Assembly (NCBI GenBank): GCA_021824175.1
Contig: JAKALP010000003.1
Coordinates: 186,001 to 250,000 of the forward strand
Direction of reading: 5' to 3'
DNA length: 64,000 nucleotides
Source of the DNA: Deltaproteobacteria bacterium
GTDB taxonomy: Bacteria; Desulfobacterota; Desulfobacteria; Desulfobacterales; Desulfosarcinaceae
Part shown: piece by piece, positions 6,761 to 14,276 of the stretch
How the letters are laid out: each line of letters opens with the position of its first letter
Position numbering within the stretch: the first letter of the stretch is position 1
Notes under the pieces: model-generated
Told to the model about the DNA's origin: nothing
The model's input: only the letters and a program-made list of their open reading frames with translations
Databases searched by the model: none
Made by a program: the position numbers and the translations under genes

Positions 6761-8659
6761 TCACGATCCCTCGACACGCTCATTACGGCGGGCTTCGGCT
6801 TTTGCTTTCCTGCGCGCAAAATGAGCTGCCAGGGAGACAATCAAGTCCGATGGATAACGGGTCAAGAGCCCATTGCTGAGGCGATGGTTGAAGTAAAGAA
6901 ATTTGGCCGCCAGTCCGGGAATCACCAGGAACTTCTTCTGGCGCAAGGCTTTGACAATGGCCCTGGCCACAATATCAGGGTCCAGCAGGCCGGCCATGCT
7001 TTTGACGGGCCGGGCTTCCGGGGGTAAAGTTTTGGCTTCCTGCTCGATTAAGGGCGTGCGCACTTCGGGCGGACAGACCAGGGTCACGCGGATATGGTGG
7101 CGATTGAGTTCGCTGCGCAAACATTCGCTGAAGCCCACCAGGGCATATTTGGTAGTGCCGTAGGCCGTATAACCGAACATGCCGATCAACCCGGCCACCG
7201 AGGCGATGTTGACGATGCGCCCGGCGCCTTTGGCCTTCATGGACGGCAGCACGGCGCCGACGGTGTTGCGTGTGCCGTAGACGTTGGTCTTCATGGCCTG
7301 ATCGAACTGCTCGTAGCTGATGTTTTCGAAGTAATCGCCGGAGCCCACGCCGGCGCTGTTGATCAGGATATCGGGCGCGCCGCAGCGTGTGACAGCCTGC
7401 CCGATTTTCTGCTGCACATCGGCGTTGTCGGCCACATCCATGACAAAGGAGTGGATGCGCTGGGTTGGCAGAACAGCCAGGGTTCTCAAGGCCGCACAGA
7501 TCGCCTCCAAACGAGCCTGGCCGCGAGCGAAGAGCACCAGATCACACCCCTGCCGCGCCAGCAATTGGGCCGTGGCCAGGCCGATGCCGCTGGAGCCGCC
7601 GGTGATAAACGCCAGCTTCCCGCCGAATGCTGGCGCGGGGGCGGACGCCCCATAGCTCCCTCCTCGAGCCATGGCTTCCTTGATCCGCCGGAGCCCTTCG
7701 GCATAGGCGACCCGGGGTTCATAGCCCAACTCCTTTTTGGCGCGCTCAATGGGAATACGGTTATCCGAGCCCACTAAATTCAATGCTTCAGCCGTGATGG
7801 GCGGGCGTTTTTGAATATGGAAGAACTTCCAGAGCACTTCGCAGGTCGATGCCGCCAATACAGCCAGAAACCACGGAATGGATTTGGGCGGTTTGGCGTC
7901 AACTATTGTGGCGATGTCTTCGAAGTACTTCTTCCAGGTAACCGGCAAATCATCGCAGGCGTTGTATACTCTTCCCAGGGCCGTTTCCTTGGACGCGGCC
8001 AACAGAAGTAGATCGGCCACATTATCTACAAAGGCGAGCCCCGCGTTCATCTCGCCGCCGGCCACCAGTCCAGGCGAACCGCTCTTCAGAACGTCCACCA
8101 CGTCGCGCAGCCAGGGGCCGGAACCCGGACCATAAACATTGGCCGGTCGCACCACCACAAGCTTCATGCCCCGTTGATGGTATTCCCAGGCCATTTTCTC
8201 CTGGGCCTGCTTGGCCCGACCGTAGGGCCCGAAGGTTTTGCCGTAACCAGCGTCCTCGAAGCATTCCTGGCGGCGGATCTTGTCACCGTAGACCACGATG
8301 CTGGAGGCCAGCACCACCCGCGCTCCGGTCTGCAGGGCCTGTTCAAAAACATGGCGGCTGCCCTCCACGGTAACTGCCTGGTACAAGCGCTCGTCGCCCC
8401 AATCGCCCACCACGGCGGCCAGATGGATGATGACGGCCGCCCCCTGGGCCGCGCGGGCCACGGCCGACGGGTCCGTGATGCTGCCCCGCACGACCTCCAC
8501 TTTATCACCCCAGGCCGGGGGCATTGCTTCATGGGGTAGAACCAATGCCTTGACGGCGATGCCCGCCGCGAGAAGTTTTTCTACCACCGAGCGTCCGATA
8601 AATCCCGTGGCGCCGGTAACCAGAACCGGTTGAGCCATTTCTGCCATTGCGTTATTCAT
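6761..8659 (-). CDS. Double SDR fusion: extended NAD-dependent epimerase/3-beta-HSD-like domain plus classical SDR
   Basis: A 632-residue fusion of two Rossmann dehydrogenases. The N-terminal half (about 10-330) is an extended SDR, with TGATGFIG at 15-22, an ASSIVVYG strand and the YGRAK catalytic YxxxK. It most resembles NAD-dependent epimerase/dehydratases and 3-beta-hydroxysteroid dehydrogenase-like proteins. The C-terminal half (about 345-600) is a classical SDR, with GGSSGIG at 354-360, an NSAGVG motif and YGTTK as YxxxK. Its tail, with KFLVIPGLAAKFLYFNHRL, recalls lipid-type SDRs such as 3-ketodihydrosphinganine reductases. The ribosome site AAGGAAAC precedes the ATG. It is last of three minus-strand genes, 35 bp behind the activase. 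I infer two consecutive redox steps on a product of the glycyl radical enzyme. The substrate is unknown. Confidence 0.85.
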   Translation of the reverse strand: MNNAMAEMAQPVLVTGATGFIGRSVVEKLLAAGIAVKALVLPHEAMPPAWGDKVEVVRGSITDPSAVARAAQGAAVIIHLAAVVGDWGDERLYQAVTVEGSRHVFEQALQTGARVVLASSIVVYGDKIRRQECFEDAGYGKTFGPYGRAKQAQEKMAWEYHQRGMKLVVVRPANVYGPGSGPWLRDVVDVLKSGSPGLVAGGEMNAGLAFVDNVADLLLLAASKETALGRVYNACDDLPVTWKKYFEDIATIVDAKPPKSIPWFLAVLAASTCEVLWKFFHIQKRPPITAEALNLVGSDNRIPIERAKKELGYEPRVAYAEGLRRIKEAMARGGSYGASAPAPAFGGKLAFITGGSSGIGLATAQLLARQGCDLVLFARGQARLEAICAALRTLAVLPTQRIHSFVMDVADNADVQQKIGQAVTRCGAPDILINSAGVGSGDYFENISYEQFDQAMKTNVYGTRNTVGAVLPSMKAKGAGRIVNIASVAGLIGMFGYTAYGTTKYALVGFSECLRSELNRHHIRVTLVCPPEVRTPLIEQEAKTLPPEARPVKSMAGLLDPDIVARAIVKALRQKKFLVIPGLAAKFLYFNHRLSNGLLTRYPSDLIVSLAAHFARRKAKAEARRNERVEGS

Positions 8660-8694
8660 GTCTAGTTTCCTTCTAAATTTTTTTTATGATCGGG

Positions 8695-9633
8695 TCATTC
8701 GGACAGTTCGATGCCCATTTCCCGGTAAATGGCCCGGCAGCGTTCTAGGCGGGTGGTATCCGCGAATGAAGTCATGGCGGGATCATGTGCATAAGGGGTC
8801 TCATGTCCCAGCTTCCGATTTTTTTCGTGCCAGAGGGGGTTGTAGGCCAGTAGGGCCGCCCGCTTTACACCCAGGCCGCTTAGAAATTCGGCCATGGCGC
8901 GCAGGTTTTCTTCGCCGTCGGTGATGCCCGGCACCAGGGGCGTGCGCGGCAGTAGTATTTTTCCATCTCTATGTGTCGCAATTATTAGCTGCTTGAAATT
9001 AGCGATGATCCGTTCGTTGCTCAGGCCGCAGTACTTCTTATGCGCCGCGCGATCCATGAGCTTAAGGTCGAAGTAAATTGCATCCAAGTATGGATAAAGT
9101 AATTCCATGAAGCGCGGCAATTCAAAGCCCCCACAAGTTTCCAGCAGGGTATGCAATCCATGGACTTTGGCCATGCGAAGCAAGTCGGAAACAAAATCCA
9201 TGTAGAGCGTGGGCTCGCCGCCGGAAAGGGTGAGCCCGCCCCCCGAGGTGTCGAAGAAGGGCTTGTCCGGCAGCACTTGGGTTAGAATTTCTTCCACGCT
9301 CATCTGCTTTCCCACCCGTTCTAAAGCGCCCGAGGGGCAAACCTCAGTGCAGGCGAAGCAAAGACGACACTTGCCGCGATCCACATAAACACGATGACTT
9401 TTGGAAAGTGCTTCATCCGGGCAGATCTTGCGGCACTCGCCGCAATCCACGCACCTATCAGAGTCAAAGGCGATCTCCGCCGCCGGGCTGCGGCTTTCGG
9501 GGTTGTGACACCAGACGCAGGCCAGGGGGCAGCCCTTGAAGAAGACCACCGAGCGGATGCCCGGCCCGTCATCCAAGCTGTTGCCTTTGATCTCCAGGAT
9601 CAGCGGCAGTTTGGGGGCAGCGTTGGCCATCAT
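8695..9633 (-). CDS. Glycyl radical enzyme activating protein (radical SAM)
   Basis: A 312-residue radical SAM enzyme that should install the glycyl radical on the neighbouring enzyme by hydrogen abstraction with a 5'-deoxyadenosyl radical. The radical SAM cysteines are C35, C39 and C42 in CPLACVWC. A ferredoxin-like insert at about residues 60-105 has two 4Fe-4S cluster motifs (CVDCGECRKICP and CRLCFACTEVCP), as in activases of the dehydratase and decarboxylase branches rather than the short PflA type. The SAM-binding GGE follows as TLSGGEPTLY. Its ATG overlaps the stop of the glycyl radical enzyme (ATGA at 9630-9633), which implies translational coupling and a dedicated partner. Confidence 0.96.
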   Translation of the reverse strand: MMANAAPKLPLILEIKGNSLDDGPGIRSVVFFKGCPLACVWCHNPESRSPAAEIAFDSDRCVDCGECRKICPDEALSKSHRVYVDRGKCRLCFACTEVCPSGALERVGKQMSVEEILTQVLPDKPFFDTSGGGLTLSGGEPTLYMDFVSDLLRMAKVHGLHTLLETCGGFELPRFMELLYPYLDAIYFDLKLMDRAAHKKYCGLSNERIIANFKQLIIATHRDGKILLPRTPLVPGITDGEENLRAMAEFLSGLGVKRAALLAYNPLWHEKNRKLGHETPYAHDPAMTSFADTTRLERCRAIYREMGIELSE

Positions 9634-12590
9634 CCCACTCCGAATTGGGCGCGCTCGATCAACTCAATCTGCATGTTGCGGTTCAAGGTCACGAAATAAG
9701 CGTTATAGCCGGAGATGCGCACCATCAGGTTCTGGTAGTTTTCAGGGTGTTCCATGGCAGCGCGCAGGGTGTCGGACGACACCACGTTGAGCTGCATCTG
9801 CATGCCGCCCAGGTCGCAGTAGGCCTGAGCGTAAGAGGCGATGGTATCCACGGTCTGCTGATGGCTTTCGCCCGGCGCCGGCACCACCTTGACGTTGAAG
9901 GCGATATTGTTGTTCAGGTTGGCGAAGTCGAGGGCCGCCACGTCGCGCAGGTTGGAGAGGATGTTCTTGGACGCATGGGGTTCGGGGGTCAGACCAGGCG
10001 TAAAGGCCTTGCCGGCCAGGCGGCCCGAAGGCAGCGCGCCAGTCAGGGTGCCGAAGGCCACGTGGTTGGACATGGACCAGAAGCCTGTGGTGTAGCGGCC
10101 GCCCCGGTAGTTGAGGTGTTGCCAGAAGAGATCGTGGGCCAGCTTGGACACCCGGTTGGCCATGGCCAAGGCTTGCGCATCGCCGGAACCGAACAGGGGC
10201 ACCTTGGTCTTGATCATGGCCAGCAGGGCCGCATGGTCGGCGAAATTGGCGTTCACGGCCGCCAGGAGTTCGGCAAAGGAGATTTTCTTCTGGTCGAACA
10301 CCAGGGTCTTGATGGCCATGAGGGAGTCGGTAATGTCAGCCAATCCGATACACGCGGTGCCGGAAGAATTATAGAGCGCGCCGCCATGGGTGACGTCCTT
10401 GCCCGTCTTCAGGGGACCTTGCATCAAAGCTGAAATGTAGGGCGTGGGCCGAAGCATTTGGTGGGCCTCGCCCAGGTAGTTGTTGTATTCACAGGTCAGA
10501 TCCGCCAGCAGTTGCAACTGGGCAGCGAAGGCATTGAAGAACGCATCAAACTCTTTGAAAGCACCGGCCGCAATATCTCCCGTGGCCGGGCCCAACTGCC
10601 AGCGCATCAGGGGATGGCGACCATTATTGAGGGCCATCTCCAGGGCCGCCACCATGTTGAACATCATGCAGTTGGTGTGGCCCAGATGGCGGCCCGAGAG
10701 GGTCGGCTCCACGCAGCCCGTGGCTGACCAGTCGCGCAGGTGCTCGGCCGGATAATTGAAATCGGCCAGCGAGGCCATGACCCGCTCGTCGTTGTGAATG
10801 GAGGGCGTGGCCAGGGTGTTCACATTGACTTCACACAGCCGCCGCAGATAGGCGCGGCTGTTCTTCTCCTTGTGGTAGCGGGCGTTGACGTTGGGGTCGC
10901 GGATGCCAAGCATCTCCGTGACCTTGAGGAAGATGTAGGTCATATCATTGACCGCGTCTTCGCCCTGGGGCGTGACGCCGCCCAGGGTGATGGCCTGGTC
11001 CGAAGAGCTGCCGCCGAAGAGATGGTTGCCGATGTCCGGGATCAGGGGCAGATGGTCAGTGCAGCGCATGTAGAGACAACCGATCAGTTCCACGGCGTGG
11101 CGGATGTAGGCCGCGCGCGCCGTCTCATTTTCCAGCCGTTCCATATCCGCCTTGAAATAGGGCTGCAGCCACTGGTCCAGGCGGCCCAGGGAGAAGCCGG
11201 CGTTGGTGTTCTCCATGTGCACGCCGATCCAGATGATCCACAAGGCGTTGACCGCTTCGTCCAAGGTGGCGCAGGGATTGGCTGGCACCCGGCGGCAGAT
11301 CTGCGCCAGCTTCGCAAGCTCGGCTCGGCGCGCTGTGTCTGCTTCGACGCCCGCCAGCCGGTCGGCTTCCACTGCCAGGTTGCGGGCATAGGCTTCGATC
11401 CCCTCCAGGCAGATGGCCATGGCCTGCAATGTGTCGCGCTTTTCCTGCATGGACGGCGGTGTGTGCGCCAGTTCGCGCGCGATGTCGGCCCGGATGCCGC
11501 CGGTGCCCTGGGCCAGGATTCTGGGATAATCGAGAATGGTGTGGGACAGGGCCACGGTCTTCCACAAAAAGCAGGCCGCGAAGCGCTCGTCCAGCTCCTG
11601 GCAGATGGGGTAGTGCTTGTGGTCGCGCACCCATTCCCGGAAGTTGCGCTTGAGCCAGAAGGGAAAGATGCGCTGGTGCAGGGCCTCCACTGTTTCCGGG
11701 GAGACCTCGTAAGGGTTCAGCGGACGGTAGGGCGCGGTCAGCAGCTCGCCCCAGATCATGGTGCCGTGGGCGTCCGGGTAGAGCACCACCCCGATCTCCT
11801 GGGTGGTCGTGGTGCCGGCGATCAAGTCTTTGGAGCGGATCAGGGGCTTTTTATGGGTCATGAGGTAGTTGAACGCCTGGGCCTGGCGCAGCACGGGGAT
11901 ATGCGGCCGGCCGTTGGAATCGGTTTCAAATCCGTTTTGTTTGAACCAGCGCGTCAAAATCTCCGGCCGCTCTGGGCAGAGGGCGGGTTTGGTTTTCAGA
12001 TGAATGCCCAGAAATTCTTTCAGGCGCGGAAAATCTTCGAGCCCGAAATCGGAGAGGTAAGGATCTTTGAGGAACCGCACGCCGGTATCAACGGCGGCCG
12101 GCTTGAGCTGGCGCAGCCGTCGGCCGCCGATGGAGGTCTGCGTGGCCTTTTCAGCATCATAGGCCCGTCCTTCGGCCCGGGTCTCTTTTTTGAGCTTGGC
12201 GATCTGCACGGGCTTCAACAGCAAGGAGAGATAAAAGTTGATGAGCTGCAGGTAGCCGATATTGCCCCTGGTGGCCATCTTGTTTTGCATCAGGGCGATC
12301 ATCAGTTTGTTGGGCGGTTCCGTGGCGGCCGCCTTCAAGGCCTGCTCATCCTTGAAGATCAGCATGGCATCCGGCGGGTCGGGAATCGGTGAACAGACCC
12401 GCACCCGGCCGGCCTTGAAAATCAGGGCCTGCTCCACGCTGCCGGTTTCGGTGCGCACCCCGAAGGTGAAATCCAGCCAGCCGTCTTCGGATTTCAAATA
12501 TTGGTTGAGCTTCCTGCGCTGGTTGAAGTTCATGGCAAAGAAGCGCAGGAAAAGATGGGTCAACGTGTTGCTCAGCGTCCAAGGGCGCAT
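9630..12590 (-). CDS. Glycyl radical enzyme with N-terminal SCP2-like domain
   Basis: A 986-residue member of the pyruvate formate-lyase superfamily. The thiyl cysteine is Cys626 in the motif TGCVEP, and the radical glycine is Gly961 in VRISGYNAYF near the C-terminus. GCVEP, with its general-base Glu, is the signature of the dehydratase/C-N or C-S lyase branch (glycerol or diol dehydratase, choline TMA-lyase, isethionate lyase), not of PFL itself. The body is normal in size. The extra length is an N-terminal domain of about 130 residues (about 20-140) whose pattern (LDFTFGVRTE, DAMLIFKDEQALKA, NKMATRGNIGYL) resembles SCP2 sterol/lipid-carrier folds. The start is supported by AGGAGAGGTG. It is coupled to the activase and lies 92 bp behind the TetR gene. 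A hydrophobic or CoA/lipid-linked substrate is an inference. Confidence 0.92.
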   Translation of the reverse strand: MRPWTLSNTLTHLFLRFFAMNFNQRRKLNQYLKSEDGWLDFTFGVRTETGSVEQALIFKAGRVRVCSPIPDPPDAMLIFKDEQALKAAATEPPNKLMIALMQNKMATRGNIGYLQLINFYLSLLLKPVQIAKLKKETRAEGRAYDAEKATQTSIGGRRLRQLKPAAVDTGVRFLKDPYLSDFGLEDFPRLKEFLGIHLKTKPALCPERPEILTRWFKQNGFETDSNGRPHIPVLRQAQAFNYLMTHKKPLIRSKDLIAGTTTTQEIGVVLYPDAHGTMIWGELLTAPYRPLNPYEVSPETVEALHQRIFPFWLKRNFREWVRDHKHYPICQELDERFAACFLWKTVALSHTILDYPRILAQGTGGIRADIARELAHTPPSMQEKRDTLQAMAICLEGIEAYARNLAVEADRLAGVEADTARRAELAKLAQICRRVPANPCATLDEAVNALWIIWIGVHMENTNAGFSLGRLDQWLQPYFKADMERLENETARAAYIRHAVELIGCLYMRCTDHLPLIPDIGNHLFGGSSSDQAITLGGVTPQGEDAVNDMTYIFLKVTEMLGIRDPNVNARYHKEKNSRAYLRRLCEVNVNTLATPSIHNDERVMASLADFNYPAEHLRDWSATGCVEPTLSGRHLGHTNCMMFNMVAALEMALNNGRHPLMRWQLGPATGDIAAGAFKEFDAFFNAFAAQLQLLADLTCEYNNYLGEAHQMLRPTPYISALMQGPLKTGKDVTHGGALYNSSGTACIGLADITDSLMAIKTLVFDQKKISFAELLAAVNANFADHAALLAMIKTKVPLFGSGDAQALAMANRVSKLAHDLFWQHLNYRGGRYTTGFWSMSNHVAFGTLTGALPSGRLAGKAFTPGLTPEPHASKNILSNLRDVAALDFANLNNNIAFNVKVVPAPGESHQQTVDTIASYAQAYCDLGGMQMQLNVVSSDTLRAAMEHPENYQNLMVRISGYNAYFVTLNRNMQIELIERAQFGVG

Positions 12591-12654
12591 ACTACACCTC
12601 TCCTTATTAATTGCATGAGACTAGTGCGTGAGCGAAAACCCTCTATTTCTTCCC

Positions 12655-12666
12655 TTTGATATCAAA
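12655..12666. promoter_or_regulatory. Palindrome upstream of the glycyl radical enzyme gene
   Basis: A perfect 12-bp palindrome TTTGATATCAAA, extended by another GATATC copy at 12668-12673, lies in the spacer between the TetR stop and the enzyme start. It could be an operator or part of a promoter. It differs from the palindromes upstream of the TetR gene. Confidence 0.3.
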
Positions 12667-12682
12667 TGATATCGAATCAACT

Positions 12683-13354
12683 TCAATACAACGGCTCGCC
12701 CCGGTCGCTGTGCTGTTTCATGGCCATGATCTGGCCGATCAGGTCGTTGAGCCGTTTTTCCACAAATGCCTCCACATCCTCCAAGACCTCATGAAACAGC
12801 CGGCTGTTGCACAGCGTCACCAGGCCGTGCAGATCAGACCAGAAGCGCACCACCTGATAGAGCACGAATTGCTCTTTGTCCGGACCGGCCGTGGGCAGAT
12901 AAGCGGAGATGGGCTCCACAAACAAAGCCAGGCATTTGAGGGCGTTCTGCTTTTCATGCAACGCCAGGGGTTCGATGTTGCTGCCCACATAGTCCAGGTA
13001 TTTGGGCGTGTGCAGGTTGAACATGATGTCGTAGTAGCTGGGAAAGGCGCGGCCGAACTCCACATAGGCCCGGGTCATGGCCTGGATGCGCTCTCCCAGA
13101 TCAGCGCAATCCGCTGAGCGGCGGGTCAGCAGCTCGTGCAGCTTTTCAAAGCCCCGCACCCGGATCATGAGGTTGAGTTCGTCGCGACCCGCGTAATAGT
13201 TATAGATCGTGGTGGCGGTGATCCCCAGCCGGCCGGCGATTTTGCGCACGCTCAGATTGACAAAGCCCTCATCGATGATGATGGCCAGGGCGGTATCGAG
13301 GATCTTCTGGCGGGTTTGTTCGACCTCTTCCGCGGTCATGGGAGTTTTGGGCAT
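12683..13354 (-). CDS. TetR-family transcriptional regulator
   Basis: A 223-residue TetR-type repressor. The helix-turn-helix domain spans about residues 12-60 and ends in the family hallmark ITATTIYNYYAGRDEL, where helix 3 contacts DNA. The C-terminal domain (about 65-215) is the variable ligand-binding and dimer region. The start is ATG 13352-13354, behind AAGGAG. It is the first gene of the minus-strand cluster, 92 bp before the glycyl radical enzyme gene. Two palindromes at 13374-13399 directly upstream look like its autoregulatory operators. The likely inducer is the substrate, or a CoA ester, of the pathway encoded behind it; that is inference from gene order. Confidence 0.93.
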   Translation of the reverse strand: MPKTPMTAEEVEQTRQKILDTALAIIIDEGFVNLSVRKIAGRLGITATTIYNYYAGRDELNLMIRVRGFEKLHELLTRRSADCADLGERIQAMTRAYVEFGRAFPSYYDIMFNLHTPKYLDYVGSNIEPLALHEKQNALKCLALFVEPISAYLPTAGPDKEQFVLYQVVRFWSDLHGLVTLCNSRLFHEVLEDVEAFVEKRLNDLIGQIMAMKQHSDRGEPLY

Positions 13355-13373
13355 CCATTTTCTCCTTCGAAGG

Positions 13374-13399
13374 ATAACAGTGTTATATTAACGGCGTTA
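13374..13399. promoter_or_regulatory. Tandem palindromic operator for the TetR regulator
   Basis: Two near-perfect palindromes stand back to back: ATAACAGTGTTAT at 13374-13386 and TAACGGCGTTA at 13389-13399, each with one mismatched central base. They share the TAAC/GTTA half-site, with centres 14 bp apart. They begin 20 bp upstream of the TetR start codon and overlap where its promoter should be. This is the usual place for TetR autoregulation. Confidence 0.65.
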
Positions 13400-13486
13400 T
13401 TTTGAGTCAAGACCTTGTTGTCTGGTTGGTAGGCCGCTTGAATAGAGTAGAGTAGCTATGAAAGAAAGACGTGTTCAAAAATTGGA

Positions 13487-13729
13487 ATGAGAACCATCAT
13501 ATTGATCTCAAAGGATGAAACTGATACTTTACAATTTATGGACAGAAAAGCGACTACCCTTTCCCGCATGCTCGATCATCGGAATGATGACTTTGTTCCA
13601 GGTAAGCCTGAAGAGCGTATCGGCCTTGTTTGGCCACTGACCCAGGAAATCGTATCTTTAAGCGTCAAGCACAATGCTGAACGAAGATTACAAAGACATG
13701 TTACAAGCCTTGTCCGACGAAAAGGTTAA
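13487..13729 (+). CDS. Small protein paired with a nucleotidyltransferase
   Basis: An 80-codon frame overlapping the following nucleotidyltransferase gene by 56 bp. Its second half, PEERIGLVWPLTQEIVSLS followed by AERRLQRHVTSLVRRK, has the organised look of small proteins encoded just before MNT/AbiEii-like nucleotidyltransferases. That likeness is from memory of similar gene pairs and not a verified match. The true start is uncertain: ATG 13487 gives the full frame, but ATG 13538 (MDRKATTL) is also plausible, and no strong ribosome site precedes either. I infer a partner, possibly an antitoxin or accessory subunit. Both genes are AT-richer than the flanking metabolic genes. Confidence 0.5.
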   Translation: MRTIILISKDETDTLQFMDRKATTLSRMLDHRNDDFVPGKPEERIGLVWPLTQEIVSLSVKHNAERRLQRHVTSLVRRKG

Positions 13730-14138
13730 ATTCCTTTTGGTCGGGGCTTACGCGCTGGCGGCTCACGGATACCCAAGGGCTACGATGGATATCGACATTT
13801 GGGTCATGCCGTCACCGCGCAACGCCGATGCCGTCTTAAGAGCTTTGAAGCGTTTCGGCGCTCCTTTGCACAACCTGACCAAAGACGACCTTCAGGTAGA
13901 TGGCACTATTTTCCAAATCGGGGTCGCCCCAAGGCGTATTGATATCATCACCACAGCAACAGGGCTTGAGTTCGAAAAAACCTATCAGCGATCCATCTCC
14001 ATGATTTTAGAAGGAATCGAAGTCCACATCCCTTCCCTCGAAGATATGATTCAAAACAAACGGGCATCAGGCAGAACCAAGGATCTGGCCGATGCTGAAG
14101 CCTTGGAATTCCTGAAAAGCACTTCCGGCAACCAATAA
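13674..14138 (+). CDS. Nucleotidyltransferase (MNT/AbiEii-like fold)
   Basis: A 154-residue nucleotidyltransferase-fold protein. The core motif is LLVGAYALAAHGYPRATMDIDIW: glycine-rich turn at 23-25 and metal-binding D39-x-D41. A third strand carries RRIDIITTA at about 90-98. The C-terminal helix EDMIQNKRASGRTKDLADAEAL is the K-x5-R-x-KDxxD-type tail common in AbiEii/DUF6036-like toxins and in antibiotic-type nucleotidyltransferases. It starts inside the preceding small gene, so the two are probably co-translated. Such pairs often act as toxin-antitoxin or phage-defence units, but no activity is proved by the sequence. It could be a simple cellular NMP transferase. Confidence 0.8.
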   Translation: MLNEDYKDMLQALSDEKVKFLLVGAYALAAHGYPRATMDIDIWVMPSPRNADAVLRALKRFGAPLHNLTKDDLQVDGTIFQIGVAPRRIDIITTATGLEFEKTYQRSISMILEGIEVHIPSLEDMIQNKRASGRTKDLADAEALEFLKSTSGNQ

Positions 14139-14276
14139 CCAACCTTTAAATTTGATCTATTAACGATGCCGGGAATTCAATGGCATGGTTGTCAGCGTTT
14201 TTGGCGTATGCTTCCTTGCTGAATGCCGATTCTTTGTTATATTGAAGCTTCATTTTGCATGATGAAAGGATTCGCC

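Follow-up and report, generated by a model that had tools for sequence, protein, structure and literature searches.

Eliminases among the glycyl radical enzymes (GREs) share a Cys-X-Glu (CXE) motif, and those named in the accessible part of PMC7077986 act on small soluble substrates (glycerol, propanediol, choline, hydroxyproline and isethionate); for members other than HypD, the same part proposes that the CXE glutamate deprotonates the hydroxyl group from which the aldehyde of the product is formed. Lipid carriers of the SCP2 type are known from ubiquinone synthesis, where UbiT, as presented in the accessible part of PMC6747719, is an SCP2 protein of a pathway that proceeds without O2 and involves iron-sulphur enzymes, and where a ubiT-ubiU gene fusion is reported from two Zymomonas genomes. 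The partners of UbiJ and UbiT are hydroxylases, not GREs. Here we describe an operon in which the two kinds of protein meet, found in a 64,000-nucleotide stretch of DNA (hereafter the window; positions 186,001 to 250,000 of contig JAKALP010000003.1) from the 6.07-Mb genome of a deltaproteobacterium of the Desulfosarcinaceae (GCA_021824175.1). It encodes a TetR-family repressor, a GRE with an additional N-terminal domain, a radical SAM activase and a fusion of two short-chain dehydrogenases (SDRs). The N-terminal domain is predicted to adopt the SCP2 fold, the catalytic part appears to be an eliminase outside the cut-off of every characterised family, and we argue, with some reserve, that the combination serves a hydrophobic substrate. 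A literature search, from which most subscription papers were missing, found no description of a GRE with an SCP2 or sterol carrier protein and nothing joining a glycyl radical to DUF6765 or a GRE to both aldehyde:ferredoxin oxidoreductase (AOR) and lipid, and the query combining GRE with "ether lipid" gave only apparently unrelated work.

The catalytic part of the enzyme

Residue conservation was assessed over 80 sequences, the window enzyme and 79 homologues (locus L084, with 16 unknown residues, was left out). Cys626 is present in all 80 and Gly961 in 78, the other two having gaps; both residues lie, within GCVEP and RISGYNAYF, exactly where a first-pass annotation made from the sequence alone had put them. 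That annotation had also assigned the enzyme to the dehydratase or lyase branch, and the C626-V-E628 motif, kept in 80/80 sequences, agrees. His350, Glu460, Gly465, Ser467, His599, Asp601, Trp838 and His843 are likewise invariant along with Cys626 and Glu628, Phe525 is found in 79 sequences and Asn640 in 77. The best match in the Protein Data Bank (PDB) of the full-length model (pLDDT 91.2, pTM 0.91) is glycerol dehydratase 1r8w (TM 0.94 by target; 27% identity), followed by 1,2-propanediol dehydratases and then by CutC and others. The benzylsuccinate and alkylsuccinate synthases, hydrocarbon GREs that add their substrate to fumarate and are not eliminases, are also among the fold matches listed.

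Besides fold and motif, the window enzyme shares with the B12-independent glycerol and 1,2-propanediol dehydratases His350, which corresponds to His164 of glycerol dehydratase, and Phe525, which corresponds to Phe333. It is unlike them in carrying the SCP2 domain, in having Ala464, Gly465 and Asn640 where glycerol dehydratase has His281, Ser282 and Asp447 (the three, like His164, being residues of 1r8w with substrate roles), and in having Trp838 and His843 where both dehydratases have Tyr and Asn. Where the window enzyme has Thr639-Asn640 and Gly465, CutC has Thr-Ser and Gly and glycerol dehydratase has His-Asp and Ser, so that these positions resemble CutC more; His350 aligns with a His of the glycerol and propanediol dehydratases, HypD, YbiW and PflD but with an Asp of CutC. 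Phe333 is a position named in the accessible part of PMC7077986.

With CutC, HypD, HpsG and the other curated GREs, the window protein has in common the superfamily, the type of activase and the CXE motif, but its scores fall far under their NCBIfam equivalog cut-offs: the six best GRE models reach 234-393 bits against cut-offs of 1000-1109, with HypD highest (393 against 1100) and CutC at 359.8 against 1050. The cut-offs of CutC, HypD, HpsG/HpfG, the formate C-acetyltransferases and the indoleacetate and hydroxyphenylacetate decarboxylases were all unmet, and even the broad PFL2-3 subfamily model gave 480 bits for a cut-off of 678. Together with the separate clade that the enzyme occupies in trees (see below), these scores place it outside the characterised GRE families compared, in keeping with the first-pass interpretation; motif and predicted fold mark the catalytic part as a putative GRE eliminase.

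The N-terminal domain

The first-pass annotation had likened the N-terminal residues to SCP2 lipid carriers. The Pfam SCP2 model (PF02036) scores 15.5 bits with the whole protein and 19.5 bits with the domain alone, just short of the gathering cut-off of 21.3, and a phmmer search of the PDB with the single domain returned no match at E≤10. Family-level comparisons were more telling. Among 59 homologous sequences picked for diversity, PF02036 was matched by 25 (E≤0.1), while the 18 further families in the list had a single match apiece; a profile of the same domain family found four PDB matches at E≤10, all of them SCP2 chains (E 0.17-1.2). The AlphaFold2 model of the domain has a mean pLDDT of 76, with 80-92 across the first 70 residues, and all 26 of its Foldseek matches in the PDB at E≤0.001 are SCP2 proteins, UbiJ leading, or alkylsulfatases. 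Furthermore, the profiles of the fused domain and of the stand-alone SCP2 proteins described below match each other (98.5% probability, E 1.9e-15). Residues 1-140 are thus predicted to have the SCP2 fold, in agreement with the annotation, although the domain is only 15-18% identical to UbiJ. The alkylsulfatases matched are SdsA1 and Pisa1, hydrolytic metalloenzymes in which the matching part is, we assume, the SCP2-like C-terminal domain, at the opposite end from that of the window GRE.

Distribution and neighbours of the fused enzymes

When genomes were scanned, with each species represented once, 406 stretches showed a pattern of the family; 343 of them encode a relative, and the best 80 of these 343 were kept. 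All 80 carry the fused domain, their alignments beginning at query residue 19 or before. According to record titles, they come from Desulfobacterales, Syntrophaceae/Smithella, Spirochaetes, Clostridiales, Lachnospiraceae, Actinomycetota, Chloroflexi, Myxococcota and SAR324; because contigs of metagenome-assembled genomes may be misbinned, any single phylum should be regarded with caution. Several records are from goat or sheep gut, and those of the RUG/RUI series are presumably from rumen. The SCP2-GREs thus form a family, which by record title is present in several phyla. Three contigs (G208:C140, G152:C76 and G124:C104) hold two or three fused genes close to each other, which suggests diversification on related substrates.

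Counting any match no more than 3 kb from the fused gene, an activase was found at 67 of the 80 loci, TetR at 38, SDR at 22 and AOR at 11, compared with 5, 2, 8 and 1 matches, respectively, among 486 genes lying more than 4 kb away. SDR and AOR never occur together (0/80). The loci are not fully independent, since L047-L053 share a divergent AOR. The consecutive order TetR-GRE-activase-SDR, with genes less than 180 bp apart, is seen at 10 of the 80 loci. The conservation of the four-gene cluster expected from the first reading therefore holds well for the activase and in part for TetR, but not for the SDR, which is no constant partner and gives way to AOR at 11 loci; we accordingly no longer regard the double SDR as central to the pathway. 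In L034, L036, L038 and L040 its two domains are encoded by separate genes, and in L039 and L081 such genes lie further apart. In the Clostridiales-type loci L062, L076 and L088, an AOR (identified by Pfam in L076) is located behind or near the GRE together with a gene read as ferredoxin, whereas in L091 and L095 an aldo-keto reductase (by Pfam in L091) follows the GRE. Given that three unrelated types of aldehyde- or alcohol-handling enzymes stand beside the fused GRE, its product there is suggested to be an aldehyde or ketone. Of the "carbonyl or alkene" proposed earlier, the carbonyl is favoured by these neighbours and by the CXE motif, and the alkene has been abandoned. Immediately behind the fused GRE of L096 lies a gene (13031-14266) for a radical SAM/SPASM protein with a SEC-C motif.

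The 632-residue SDR protein of the window finds its best NCBIfam match in the PRK07201-type double SDR (NF005539, a 657-position model whose first half we take to be an extended SDR), but differs from it in scoring 177.8 bits against a cut-off of 549 and in having its two parts as separate genes in some relatives. The extended SDR scores 138.8 bits with the 2-alkyl-3-oxoalkanoate reductase OleD (cut-off 580) and 133.8 bits with the hopanoid-associated HpnA (cut-off 367.65), and the 3-ketodihydrosphingosine reductase TSC10 comes last among the 60 PDB matches listed for the classical SDR domain. Readings in terms of sphingolipids, sterols or hopanoids, taken from such names, were not adopted because the scores are below the curated cut-offs.

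Stand-alone SCP2 genes and a second pairing

A search with the SCP2 profile covered 291 genomes of the class, with up to 12 candidates scored per genome, and gave matches in 73 of them, several copies being present in some. Many of the matches lie in fused frames some 1000 residues long, but 28 fall in short frames (136-232 residues); four short, higher-scoring matches (two in G158, one each in G123 and G105) were presumed to be pieces of fused genes and stand outside the 28. A GRE adjoins the stand-alone SCP2 gene at 26 of the 28 loci, and at 23 of these 26 the order is GRE-SCP2-activase. The SCP2 gene precedes the GRE in L190, no activase was detected in the surroundings fetched for L147 and L155, the contig of L152 starts just before the SCP2 gene, which is followed by an activase, and in L158 an SDR rather than a GRE is the neighbour. 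The genome of the window itself holds one such unfused set, on contig 48 (L029). Among the unfused loci L140-L159 and L029, a DUF6765-like neighbour (by Pfam on one of them) is present at 10 of 21, as is a second family of unknown function.

In FastTree phylogenies of the catalytic part, a single clade with support 1.0 unites 33 fused with 17 unfused GREs, and within it the fused (0.886) and the unfused (0.991) enzymes are each monophyletic; with 36 fused and 20 unfused GREs, the corresponding values are 1.0, 1.0 and 0.976. The trees do not include L148 and L152, which are cut by contig ends, L156, whose GRE is split over two frames, L186-L188, or the L230 and L231 GREs; a score filter also removed the reference open reading frames (ORFs) HpsG_G058, which had been taken in a wrong frame, and G132. 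The nearest relative outside the clade is a GRE on an Acinetobacter plasmid; neither it nor its close relative from Moraxella has an SCP2 match within 6-8 kb on each side. These two enzymes (L181:7887-10292 and L182:7887-10292, from Acinetobacter towneri and Moraxella osloensis) are encoded with an activase near Tn3 transposases and a molybdopterin enzyme, in species that are usually called aerobic.

The L190 GRE, the sole member of a second branch placed in the tree, falls outside the main clade: it groups with a GRE from Fusobacteria (1.0) and with the glycerol and propanediol dehydratases (0.768), and retains the diol-dehydratase Asp at position 640. GREs of this type occur in three of the 291 genomes (E≤1e-200), the other two being 82% and 78% identical to it. 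All three have the arrangement TetR-SCP2-GRE-activase, with SCP2 directly upstream of the GRE and TetR before SCP2, two extra frames lying between TetR and SCP2 in L190. Their TetR proteins match the subfamily of the window TetR with 260.9-301.0 bits, compared with 18.2 bits for another TetR in L230. The occurrence of a unit of regulator, SCP2, GRE and activase in two GRE lineages is most simply explained by separate recruitment, so that SCP2 was probably recruited by GREs twice.

A further group of SCP2 proteins (L203-L229; about 120-175 residues), mostly unfused, is common in the class, with matches to the SCP2 protein of L190 in 43 of the 291 genomes; the partners covered for this group are those of L158, where an SDR is adjacent, and of the three L190-type loci. 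In L191 (6222-9218, + strand), an SCP2-like N-terminus (26.8 bits with the SCP2 profile) is fused to a pyrogallol-hydroxytransferase-like molybdopterin enzyme of 998 residues in total, another anaerobic enzyme with a lipid-carrier-like domain. A 1022-residue match in G231, considered as a GRE, was rejected, since it proved to be a molybdenum enzyme.

Operon layout and promoter region

The architecture read in the first-pass annotation (a 986-residue GRE, an activase coupled to it by ATGA, a 35-bp gap, a two-domain SDR and a TetR gene) was borne out by ORFs and Pfam (Table 1). The start of the activase gene overlaps the stop of the GRE gene by 4 nt, the SDR gene begins 35 bp after the activase gene, and 92 bp separate the TetR gene from the first ATG of the GRE gene. 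Pfam places the PFL-like domain (PF02901) at residues 199-847 of the GRE (E 1.8e-169) and the Gly_radical domain (PF01228) at 863-967 (E 2.5e-23), detects Radical_SAM and 4Fe-4S domains in the activase, which exceeds the cut-off of NCBIfam TIGR02494 (275.1 bits against 174.35), and splits the SDR protein into Epimerase (12-234) and adh_short (348-542).

Table 1 Features of the SCP2-GRE operon, in window coordinates
Feature	Position	Strand	Basis
TetR-family repressor, 223 aa, first operon gene	12683-13354	-	Pfam TetR_N and TetR_C_33
GRE with N-terminal SCP2 domain, 986 aa	9630-12590	-	Pfam, alignment, full-length model
N-terminal helix and predicted SCP2-fold domain, ~residues 1-140 of GRE	12171-12590	-	sub-threshold PF02036, AlphaFold2 and Foldseek, profile match to stand-alone SCP2
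Putative GRE eliminase catalytic part, ~residues 188-986 (His350, Cys626, Glu628, Gly961)	9633-12029	-	Pfam, alignment, fold
Radical SAM activase with extra 4Fe-4S domains, 312 aa	8695-9633	-	Pfam; NCBIfam TIGR02494
Fused extended SDR and classical SDR, 632 aa	6761-8659	-	Pfam; NCBIfam
Promoter/operator block	13375-13410	-	direct sequence reading; alignment with 4 relatives
Palindrome TAACGCCGTTA	13389-13399	-	sequence reading
Palindrome TAACACTGTTA	13375-13385	-	sequence reading
Candidate -35 TTGACT	13405-13410	-	sequence reading
Candidate -10 TATAAC, 17-nt spacer from TTGACT	13382-13387	-	sequence reading

Tandem operators had been proposed for the TetR gene, and two palindromes are indeed present upstream of it, overlapping, in our reading, a putative promoter of the form TTGACT-17-TATAAC. 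When the window is aligned with four relatives, the block can be made out in all: the five upstream regions share TTGA and most of the palindrome positions, and in some of them the palindromes are imperfect. A consensus promoter scan, which requires T at the last -10 position, did not flag TTGACT-17-TATAAC.

Two features lie apart from this operon. A small nucleotidyltransferase-like protein (DUF6036/AbiEii-type by Pfam) is encoded divergently at 13674-14138 of the window, and contig 41 of the same genome (L175) encodes a third GRE, which scores 1004.7 bits with the HpsG (3-sulfopropanediol dehydratase) model (cut-off 1000).

Proposed function and competing explanations

We lean towards the explanation that, within a TetR-repressed anaerobic operon, a radical dehydratase receives a hydrophobic, hydroxyl-bearing substrate from the SCP2 domain. 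The substrate would most likely be a lipid with a vicinal diol and, less likely, an amino-alcohol; substrate, product, direction of the reaction and a role of SCP2 in delivery rather than tethering are all presumptive. In such a scheme, a hydrophobic ligand may cause TetR to leave its operator, and the SCP2 domain would take the substrate from the membrane or a carrier and present it to the active site of the barrel. As in other members of the superfamily, the activase would generate the radical on Gly961, from where it would move to Cys626, which would abstract hydrogen from a hydroxyl-bearing carbon. Glu628 of the CXE motif, beside His350, would deprotonate the hydroxyl of that carbon, and, as the motif suggests, an adjacent OH or other leaving group would be expelled, turning the first carbon into an aldehyde or ketone. 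Judging from the neighbours, the two SDR domains of the window might then reduce the carbonyl or oxidise it again, and in other fused members a ferredoxin-linked AOR might oxidise it.

The same unit accompanies two GRE lineages, and in our view this is the strongest sign that SCP2 and TetR are tied to the substrate. The hydrophobic substrate first deduced from a single sequence is strengthened by this second pairing and by the separate SCP2 genes of the sister clade, while its lipid nature is only presumed. Several observations weigh against the proposal. Neither SDR nor AOR lies within 3 kb at 47 of the 80 fused loci, partly owing to contig ends, and the SDR, AOR and TetR models were built from the same loci, so that near genes were favoured over far ones. 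In the 27 stand-alone loci other than L158, the 6-18 kb retrieved gave no match for SDR or AOR, and TetR was detected among them only in L190; the unfused loci without carbonyl-handling partners slightly lowered our confidence. The SDRs reach no equivalog cut-off, and His350 is kept in 32 of 33 members of a more diverse set of fused enzymes (Gln in L018). Finally, the replacements at His281, Ser282 and Asp447 mean that the substrate is not necessarily a diol resembling glycerol, and SCP2 could serve as a tether instead of a substrate binder.

This last possibility, in which SCP2 is a membrane tether or a docking part for activase, SDR or AOR and the substrate of the GRE is small and soluble, for instance a diol or an amine, seems to us unlikely, though some observations fit it: the SCP2 gene sits between GRE and activase in most unfused loci, like that of a complex subunit, and the catalytic fold is close to the small-diol dehydratases. 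The accessible part of PMC6747719 has the SCP2 protein UbiJ organising a multi-enzyme complex, but also binding hydrophobic intermediates. The presence of two SCP2-GRE branches under one TetR subfamily fits a shared hydrophobic substrate better, and the polar residues of glycerol dehydratase are replaced by Ala, Gly and Asn. A CutC-like lyase acting on a lipid aminoalcohol or quaternary amine (a sphingoid base, or an ethanolamine or choline lipid), releasing a long-chain aldehyde and ammonia or an amine, is quite improbable. The CutC-like Thr639-Asn640 and Gly465, the listing of TSC10 and the AOR neighbours, which suit an aldehyde, would be in keeping with it; however, the His350 position is Asp in CutC, the CutC model scores far below its cut-off, the second SCP2-GRE branch retains the diol-dehydratase Asp and the SDR similarity is unspecific. 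Less probable still is a biosynthetic step that modifies a lipid, for example an unusual membrane lipid: the weak similarity of the extended SDR to OleD and HpnA, far below both cut-offs, points that way, but the patchy and sometimes multicopy occurrence of the SCP2 profile, the TetR control with an operator and the AOR and aldo-keto reductase neighbours of some loci, which we take as more usual for accessory catabolism, speak against it.

Returning to delivery by SCP2, a more specific version can be put forward tentatively, and with more doubt than assurance: SCP2-GREs would be a new functional class of GREs, lipid-diol dehydratases in which SCP2 passes a membrane lipid (1-O-alkylglycerol, monoacylglycerol, a long-chain 1,2-diol or similar) into the radical site, and which arose twice and spread through anaerobes of sediments, digesters and the rumen. 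Overall, the first-pass interpretation stands in part: its observation was confirmed and the family proved wider than a single sequence could show, its substrate is still presumptive and the role that it gave to the SDR had to be corrected.

Implications

The SCP2-GREs, oxygen-sensitive radical enzymes of anaerobes, hint at a widespread, apparently unstudied O2-free breakdown of lipid-like molecules. The large clade and the second branch constitute a concrete, testable candidate for radical lipid chemistry in anaerobes, the candidate carriers of which include rumen Clostridiales and sulphate reducers, and a gene set ready for assay is at hand in both forms, fused and separate, with the TetR that matches and with the AOR or SDR partners. 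If they are indeed lipid-diol dehydratases, these enzymes would offer anaerobes a way into lipids that needs no O2, where aerobes rely on oxygenases.

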